From Purpureocillium takamizusanense (lineage: Eukaryota > Ascomycota > Sordariomycetes > Hypocreales > Ophiocordycipitaceae), in assembly GCF_022605165.1 (NCBI RefSeq), contig NC_063068.1, positions 3,658,001-3,722,000 of the forward strand: a stretch of 64,000 nucleotides of DNA, written 5' to 3'. This document shows, in pieces, positions 6,749-8,001 of the stretch. A program made the translations under genes and the position numbers. The notes under the pieces are model-generated. The model searched no databases. It saw only the letters and a list, made by a program, of their open reading frames with translations, and had not been told where the DNA came from. Each line of letters begins with the position of its first letter. Within the stretch, counting starts at the first letter, position 1.

Positions 6749-7837
6749 GTCGGCGTCGTTGAGTGCACCGCTTGGGCGCGATTGTGTCGGCGGTGCTTGG
6801 GGAAATAAAACTTGTGCAGCCGAGTAAGTTTTGCTCGGGGTGCGCGCCAGCGCTTGTAGTACATAAGGTACGTGTAGACCGGCAGACCGACCGGGCTGCT
6901 GGCGGAACGGCCAAGTGGCGGGAAGGGTCCCTGGCTGGCCCCACTCCAGGTCCGTGGTCAGTCAGGGCTCTGCTCTGCTCTGGCCCCCCTGATGATGCTT
7001 CGAGGATGTGGAGGCTTGCGTCGAGGCGCATGAAGCGACACGGCGGGACTTGAAATGAACATGATGCGTCGAGTGCGTGCGTGCGTCTTGTAGTGTGCCA
7101 CGCGCGAGAGACCTAACCCTACGTACTACTAGGTAATGGCTACGTACAGTATACTTCGTGCAGGCGGCCATACAAAACATACAAAGGCGAGCACGAACCA
7201 GGTAGCAGAGTTGAGGCTGAAGCCAGCATAACCCGAAGACCAGGGCCCAAGACATCCTCCCCATCTCGAGCGAAGCAGTCTACCAGCAAGCTGCTACCCG
7301 GTAATAAGGCGCGCCAAGCGAAGCAGTCTCTGCACCGCTTTGCTGCCTGGTAAAAGCGTAGCTGGGGCAGCTGGCGGATGCCCAACATAAACATGTCAGA
7401 ACGGGAGATGATCTCATCATACTCCAGGGGCTTGGATGATGGCTCAAAAACGTCCCGTACGACGGGCGATCGGGGAGGTTCGTTGAGATGGCCCGTAGCA
7501 GTGCCTGTCGATTCAACGAGCCCGATACAACACGATGAAAGTGGCGATACCCTCCAATAGGGTAAAAAATACGCCAGCTCCCTGCCGAATTGTCTCTTGT
7601 GGGCATGACAGCATGGTTCATAGGCCTGCACGGGGATCGGAAACGTAACTTGAGACATGGAGGCGACAGCAGCCGCCGGAACCCGTGCTCCGATTCCCTC
7701 TGTTTGAAAACGAAAAGGGAAGGACTCGCTGCTTCCCGCTCTTCCACAAAAGTAGAGAGTCAGGGGAATAAAAAACATCAGACTTCGACGTCGAGGTCAT
7801 GGCGACAGCCCAATGCCGAAAATGCAAAAAAAAAATA
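6749..7837. other. Intergenic, ERJ5 upstream region to tRNA gene
   Basis: About 1.1 kb. Frames up to 212 codons exist on the minus strand (7140-7778), but their composition is not protein-like and I recognise no family. TACGTAC-rich sequence occurs around 7120-7155. The right end holds the poly-T terminator of the tRNA gene. Confidence 0.4.
7826..7835 (-). terminator. RNA polymerase III poly-T terminator
   Basis: Ten consecutive T on the minus strand begin two bases after the discriminator base of the initiator tRNA. This is a typical Pol III termination signal and supports a live transcription unit. Confidence 0.8.
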
Positions 7838-7962
7838 TAGCAATTGTACGTTTCGATCGTACGACCTCCGGGTTATGAGCCCGGCTGGTTGCAAGTTAGC
7901 TTGATTCAGAATGGCTCCGCATTGAGTATAGACGTACCGCGCTTCCACTGCGCCAAATTGCT
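7838..7962 (-). tRNA. Initiator tRNA-Met (CAT) interrupted by a 53-nt insertion
   Basis: Read on the minus strand, the 5' half is 7962..7938 and the 3' half 7884..7838. Joined, they give 72 nt with every stem paired: acceptor AGCAATT/AATTGCT, D stem GCGC/GCGC, anticodon stem CCGGG/CCCGG around loop CTCATAA, variable AGGTC, and T stem GTACG/CGTAC around loop ATCGAAA. Hallmarks of a eukaryotic cytoplasmic initiator are present: the A1:U72 pair, three consecutive G-C pairs below the anticodon loop, and A54/A60 in the T loop. The A box (TGGCGCAGTGG) and B box (GATCGAAAC) are intact. A TATATA lies about 34 bases upstream and a T10 terminator follows. The insertion 7937..7885 sits between positions 26 and 27. 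The gene looks functional only if the insertion is removed. Confidence 0.9.
7885..7937 (-). other. Spliceosomal-type intron inside the initiator tRNA gene
   Basis: The 53-base insertion begins GTACGT on the minus strand, contains GCTAAC near its 3' end and ends AACCAG. These are the donor, branch point and acceptor signals of the protein-gene introns in this window, and the length falls in their range. Canonical nuclear tRNA introns lie at 37/38 and are cut by the tRNA endonuclease; this one is at 26/27. I see no obvious exon-exon helix that would give a bulge-helix-bulge motif, but I could not fold it. Whether it is spliced is unknown. Confidence 0.7.
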
Positions 7963-7995: not shown

Positions 7996-8001
7996 TATAT
8001 A
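7996..8001 (-). promoter_or_regulatory. TATA element upstream of the tRNA gene
   Basis: TATATA lies about 34-39 bases upstream of the tRNA 5' end. Upstream TATA elements support Pol III transcription of tRNA genes in some fungi such as fission yeast, where TFIIIB binds them. Assignment is by position and sequence only. Confidence 0.5.

Follow-up and report, generated by a model that had tools for sequence, protein, structure and literature searches.

mRNA-type introns in three tRNA genes of a fungal genome, among them an initiator tRNA-Met gene interrupted between positions 26 and 27

Background

Tani and Ohshima (1989, 1991) reportedly described an mRNA-type intron in the U6 snRNA genes of Schizosaccharomyces pombe. 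In passages of two papers (PMC8917221, PMC10484740), removal of this intron in S. pombe is ascribed to the spliceosome, and the second of them adds reverse splicing as the presumed origin of the fission yeast intron. For nuclear tRNA genes, the first-pass annotation of the DNA studied here had assumed that introns are confined to position 37/38. This is contradicted by a red alga and by nucleomorphs, for which sections of a review (PMC4090602) describe nuclear tRNA introns at other positions; the main text of the same review holds no word starting with "spliceosom". A search of the open-access PMC literature, with subscription papers outside its scope, listed no paper recognisable as a report of a spliceosomal intron in a tRNA gene.

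The DNA analysed here (the window) is a stretch of 64,000 nucleotides on contig C1 of a 35,574,015-base, 14-contig assembly, in which all genome-wide searches were made. It holds an initiator tRNA-Met(CAU) gene split by a short sequence with the signals of an mRNA-type intron. The protein encoded by a neighbouring G-patch gene has its nearest named matches in Purpureocillium lavendulum (71% identity) and Drechmeria coniospora (57%), followed by other Hypocreales, which points to a fungus resembling the Ophiocordycipitaceae.

Results

The interrupted initiator gene lies on the minus strand at 7838..7962 (125 nt), as do all features given in this paragraph. Exon 1 (7938..7962, 25 nt) corresponds to tRNA positions 1-26, comprising the acceptor 5' strand, the D arm and G26, and exon 2 (7838..7884, 47 nt) to positions 27-73, with the anticodon arm (CAT), the T arm and the acceptor 3' strand. 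Between them stands a 53-base mRNA-type intron (7885..7937, boundary ambiguous by one G) that has its 5' splice site GTACGT at 7932..7937, the branch-point motif GCTAAC at 7895..7900, with 11 nt after the branch A, and the 3' splice site CAG at 7885..7887. Read along the strand, the order is AGCAATT TGGCGCAGTGGAAGCGCG, the 53 bases, CCGGGCTCATAACCCGGAGGTC, the T arm and the acceptor 3' strand. Judged by the box consensus, TGGCGCAGTGG (7945..7955), entirely within exon 1, is the A box and GATCGAAAC (7850..7858) the B box, which starts 97 bases from the first base of the A box at tRNA position 8. A TATATA lies upstream (7996..8001), and a run of ten T, the Pol III terminator, follows at 7826..7835. 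Among 61 other tRNA predictions of the same genome, a TATA at -50..-19 was present in 15, and four or more T at most 40 nt away in 60. Length, coordinates, splice and branch motifs, TATATA and T run all agree with what the first-pass annotation had stated.

Taking out 7937-7885 leaves an initiator tRNA of 72 nt in which all 21 stem pairs (7+4+5+5) form. We compared 60 deletions of 53 bases, starting at gene positions 9-68, and full pairing arose only from this one and from its one-base shift, which yields the same product and leaves the G assignable to either side. Eukaryotic initiators are recognised by A1:U72, three G:C pairs in the anticodon stem, CAU, A54 and A60. All of these occur in the predicted spliced product, which by the features tested is a eukaryotic initiator tRNA. 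Parts of the literature likewise name A1:U72 (PMC8450103) and A54 (PMC3978253) as initiator features. Counting against a spliceosomal intron, exon 1 ends in GCG and not in an AG-type context.

The gene was missed both by ARAGORN and by Rfam at gathering score; at relaxed threshold, its 3' half alone aligned to the tRNA family with 22.2 bits (gathering score 29). Folding of the whole precursor was no better than that of shuffles (z -0.54), and a protein-database search with the frame running through tRNA and intron returned no candidate. A genome search with the intron and short flanks matched only itself (one match), so no repeated or mobile copy was seen and a mobile or repeated intron was rejected. 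Junction patterns gave 0 matches in the viral and 0 in the prokaryotic contig collection, a result that is silent on conservation.

Next, the intron signals were set against chance and against protein-gene introns. Both strands of the window contain 127,894 53-mers; 410 of these start with GT and end with AG, and the full signal set is found in two, one of which is the initiator intron. Twenty-two candidate protein-gene introns of the window resemble it in 5' site, branch motif and branch-to-3' distance, with lengths of 50-122 and 7-19 nt after the branch A. As they were chosen by open frames on both sides and a branch-like motif, they provide a consistency check and not an unbiased consensus; within that limit, they agree with the earlier claim that signals and size resemble those of surrounding protein-gene introns.

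Two further tRNA genes carry comparable inserts, so that the genome has three interrupted in this way: initiator (26/27), Trp (26/27) and elongator Met (within the anticodon). Their inserts of 53, 56 and 70 nt, respectively, fall in the range of the window candidates. The fungal 5' site GTRNGT together with GT...AG ends is present in the initiator (GTACGT...CAG) and in Trp (GTATGT...CAG), while elongator Met has GTAAGA...CAG. The branch motif RCTRAC appears in the same order as GCTAAC, ACTAAC and ACTAAC, at distances of 11, 11 and 13.

The Trp gene was found among 26 genome sites resembling the initiator 5' half. Four continue directly into GT, and two of these have a downstream B-box-like motif. 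One is the window gene; the other, C1:1619198-1619061 (minus), is tRNA-Trp(CCA), labelled Glu by ARAGORN, in which GGGGGGCTGGCGCAACGGTAGCGCG is followed at 26/27 by a 56-base insert GTATGT...ACTAAC...CAG and then by an anticodon arm with ordinary intron (TTCCA pairing TGGAA), the T arm, the acceptor strand and T7. TATAAAA lies upstream, and the A-to-B box spacing is 110 bases against 97 in the initiator. Acceptor, D and T stems are fully paired, the anticodon stem in 4 of 5 positions (A31.C39 mismatch); by eye, U31.U39 stands in the elongator Met genes, hence a 31-39 mismatch is not peculiar to Trp. From branch to end, 12 of 16 letters agree by eye between the initiator and Trp introns, much of this being shared consensus from which we draw no conclusion on common descent.

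A genome-wide motif of a 7-nt-loop D arm plus GTRNGT matched exactly twice, in the initiator and in Trp, both with full 3' halves. Since its backwards control also gave two matches (uninspected), the argument is carried by these complete 3' halves and not by the match count alone. An Arg(CCT) gene that shares the D-arm ending GCGCG is without insert at 26/27.

We then looked for a second Trp gene. A 24-letter T-arm pattern with up to three mismatches had a single match genome-wide. The Trp D-arm pattern with one mismatch matched 15 times, against 6 in the backwards control, and exactly only in Trp and Arg(CCT); nine of the 15 matches were characterised, seven further ones being tRNA genes read as non-Trp. 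The uninterrupted Trp anticodon arm, again with up to three mismatches, gave seven matches, all at three, and by eye none combines CCA with a fully paired stem. The Rfam tRNA search of the genome scored 63 of 580 candidates. A B-box census listed 99 sites, 29 of them in Rfam-found tRNA genes; of the other 70, ten were examined, three holding a tRNA gene (one already in the set) and none an insert at 26/27. On this partial census, which leaves room for a divergent second gene, the interrupted gene looks like the sole tRNA-Trp gene.

The elongator Met case came from a scan of 68 ARAGORN predictions, at 69 tRNA or B-box loci, for GTRNG...NCTRAY...YAG. Five genes matched. Three Arg(ACG)-like matches are chance, as the "intron" would begin in the acceptor stem and take in the D arm; the fourth is Trp, and the fifth is C8:751450-751631 (182 nt), called Leu(CAG) by ARAGORN and identified here as elongator Met. 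Over its first 36 bases it does not differ from a near-identical paralog, the elongator Met gene C3:2063779-2063885 (107 nt). There the C3 paralog continues directly, whereas the C8 gene has 70 bases, GTAAGA...ACTAAC...CTACAG, with 13 nt after the branch A, followed by TATGTGC, from where the two genes agree again. The insert splits the anticodon CA/T, and its removal restores CAT ahead of an ordinary anticodon-loop intron. Its limits are fixed by the paralog and not by a splice motif, and they land exactly on GT and AG. Small indels set the ordinary introns of the two genes apart, so neither gene is an exact duplicate of the other; elongator Met can also be obtained from the uninterrupted paralog.

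At locus L086, a Met(CAT) call by ARAGORN was read as a long-arm Leu(CAA) gene. Loci L072 (read as Leu-type) and L051 (read as Lys-type) hold closely spaced, near-identical tRNA pairs with differing anticodon-loop introns.

The U6 snRNA gene of this genome is interrupted as well. Rfam gave one U6 match genome-wide (47 of 1,490 candidates scored), on C3 (locus L128, about 1455-1612). The alignment is poor just ahead of ACAGAGAAG because the expected upstream part TTTGAAACGAT sits 55 bases further up. These 55 bases, GTAAGC...CCTGAC...CACAG with 11 nt after the branch A, form an mRNA-type intron directly before ACAGAGA, bordered by the exon ends GAAACGAT and ACAGAGAAG and containing the B-box-like GTTCGAATCC. 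Initiator, Trp and U6 introns thus measure 53, 56 and 55 nt, and each has 11 nt after the branch A and ends in CAG. That mRNA-type introns occur in U6 of some fungi, as had been stated at first reading, agrees with the S. pombe case (in part of PMC8917221) and with this gene. U6 is an essential RNA and a second copy did not turn up, so splicing of a Pol III-type transcript by the spliceosome is most likely required in this genome, as it is in S. pombe (PMC8917221, PMC10484740). With an intron-bearing U6, a spliceosomal intron in a tRNA no longer faces its chief mechanistic objection.

Finally, the genome was searched for intact initiator genes, a check raised by the first-pass annotation. One uninterrupted initiator-type gene was found at C5:2574982-2575053 (64 bits), yet the genome has only two initiator-type genes overall. 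This number is what three genome-wide patterns leave (anticodon arm, anticodon-to-T-loop, and T arm with one mismatch). All 53 sites listed for the T-arm pattern were tested for T-stem pairing, with 55 sites in the stretches that were read: the two initiators pair 5 of 5, while pairing is 4 of 5 at two other sites, neither of which is among the anticodon-to-T-loop matches. The C5 gene is identical to the spliced window tRNA in 53 of 72 positions. Its D arm is elongator-like (TAGCTCAGGGGAAGAGC). Eight of 21 stem pairs have both partners changed between the two initiators; in no pair is a single partner changed, and pairing is intact throughout in either gene. By this pattern, the two look like old, separately maintained genes. 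The compensated changes do not date the intron, and if it was gained recently, they are uninformative on splicing. In principle, the cell could live on the uninterrupted gene.

Discussion

The anatomy of the gene and its signals, together with the two other interrupted tRNA genes and the U6 intron, are read directly from DNA. They make it very probable that 7838-7962 is a functional, Pol III-transcribed initiator gene whose U2-type intron at 26/27 is removed by the spliceosome, and that it is one of a small set. As to transcription, splicing, use in translation and their order, we infer the following course. Pol III would start downstream of the TATA, use the A and B boxes and read through to the T run; U1 would recognise GUACGU at the 5' end of the intron, the A of GCUAAC would form the lariat, and joining at the CAG end would give an intact initiator tRNA. 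In Trp and elongator Met, the spliceosome would take out the insert and the SEN enzyme the anticodon-loop intron.

It might be argued that the insertion has disabled a former initiator gene and that C5:2574982-2575053 supplies the cell, the window copy being silent. Both Met types exist as uninterrupted genes, hence the interrupted initiator and elongator Met copies may be dispensable, and a section of PMC4090602 describes eukaryotic tRNA genes with short D- or T-arm insertions as supposed pseudogenes, for the most part single members of a large group of synonymous genes. Here, the three patterns reveal just two initiator-type genes, not many. Had the insert arisen at random, a matched set of 5' site, branch motif and 3' site would not lie at its exact junctions, nor would the pattern recur in tRNA-Trp and elongator Met, and the initiator shows neither decay of any stem pair nor loss of TATA, boxes or terminator. 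We consider a pseudogene improbable. Even less probable is an initiator intron cut by SEN at an unusual bulge-helix-bulge, on the model of red algae and nucleomorphs, where ectopic nuclear tRNA introns are known (parts of PMC4090602). Three of four central-helix pairs can form at the junction in both initiator and Trp, but the bulge-helix-bulge is incomplete (central 3/4, inner 1/3, outer 2/3, with the same counts in both genes), an A stands opposite G in each central helix, and shuffled introns pair at least as well as the initiator intron in 14% of 20,000 trials. A clear motif of this kind, which the initial reading had regarded as decisive against its own proposal, was looked for at both junctions and only this incomplete helix was found. 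The initiator intron, at 26/27, is also away from the SEN-type position 37/38. Moreover, SEN cleavage leaves unexplained the branch motif and CAG as well as the elongator Met insert with its paralog-defined GT and AG ends.

Least credible of all, and close to negligible, is the notion that the three signals are coincidental in an insert that splices itself or is otherwise removed; we found no point in its favour. Within the window no Rfam family attains its gathering score, a 241-base stretch surrounding the gene gives only tRNA at E up to 1, and a group I or II catalytic core had no Rfam match. Known group I and II introns are longer than the 53 to 70 nt of these inserts.

The first proposal, that this nuclear tRNA gene holds an intron of spliceosome type, is well supported, and strengthened by Trp, elongator Met and U6. 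The accompanying statement that the initiator must be matured in this way is not established, since the uninterrupted C5 gene exists. An argument from necessity is better made on tRNA-Trp, because no second Trp gene was found. That the splicing step could act as a control point, as the initial reading suggested, is speculation. From these gene counts, it is likely that translation in this lineage is spliceosome-dependent: the apparent sole Trp gene and one member of each Met gene pair found, initiator and elongator, would need splicing, and Trp would need both systems.

Should this be true, the spliceosome would be maturing these tRNAs, a task otherwise ascribed to another enzyme, and three tRNA genes with mRNA-type introns, together with U6, would tie translation to it. 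It would offer a natural system for studying how Pol III transcripts come within reach of spliceosomes and how RNA genes acquire introns; by analogy with U6, a similar entry into tRNA genes by reverse splicing is possible. Genes of this sort, which standard tRNA finders would overlook, may be common among related fungi. The blind spot is evident here: ARAGORN and Rfam miss the initiator, and ARAGORN mislabels Trp (Glu) and elongator Met (Leu). In the relevant part of PMC8450103, the noncanonical-intron search of tRNAscan-SE 2.0 is described for its archaeal mode.

Among known systems, the ectopic introns of Cyanidioschyzon merolae and nucleomorphs resemble the initiator intron in being nuclear-type and away from 37/38, but differ in being attributed to splicing endonucleases (both according to sections of PMC4090602). 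Canonical SEN/TSEN introns at 37/38 likewise lie within nuclear tRNA genes, whose products can fold fully only once the intron is out, and introns of this anticodon-loop type are present in Trp and both elongator Met genes; the initiator intron differs by its position at 26/27, the lack of a bulge-helix-bulge and the presence of GT, branch and CAG signals. In S. pombe U6, a Pol III-type gene carries a short mRNA-type intron that the spliceosome removes (part of PMC8917221), and in this the likeness is evident. Here, in contrast, the host is a tRNA and the intron sits in the tRNA body, with A and B boxes both in exons, whereas in U6 of the same genome the B-box-like GTTCGAATCC is intronic.
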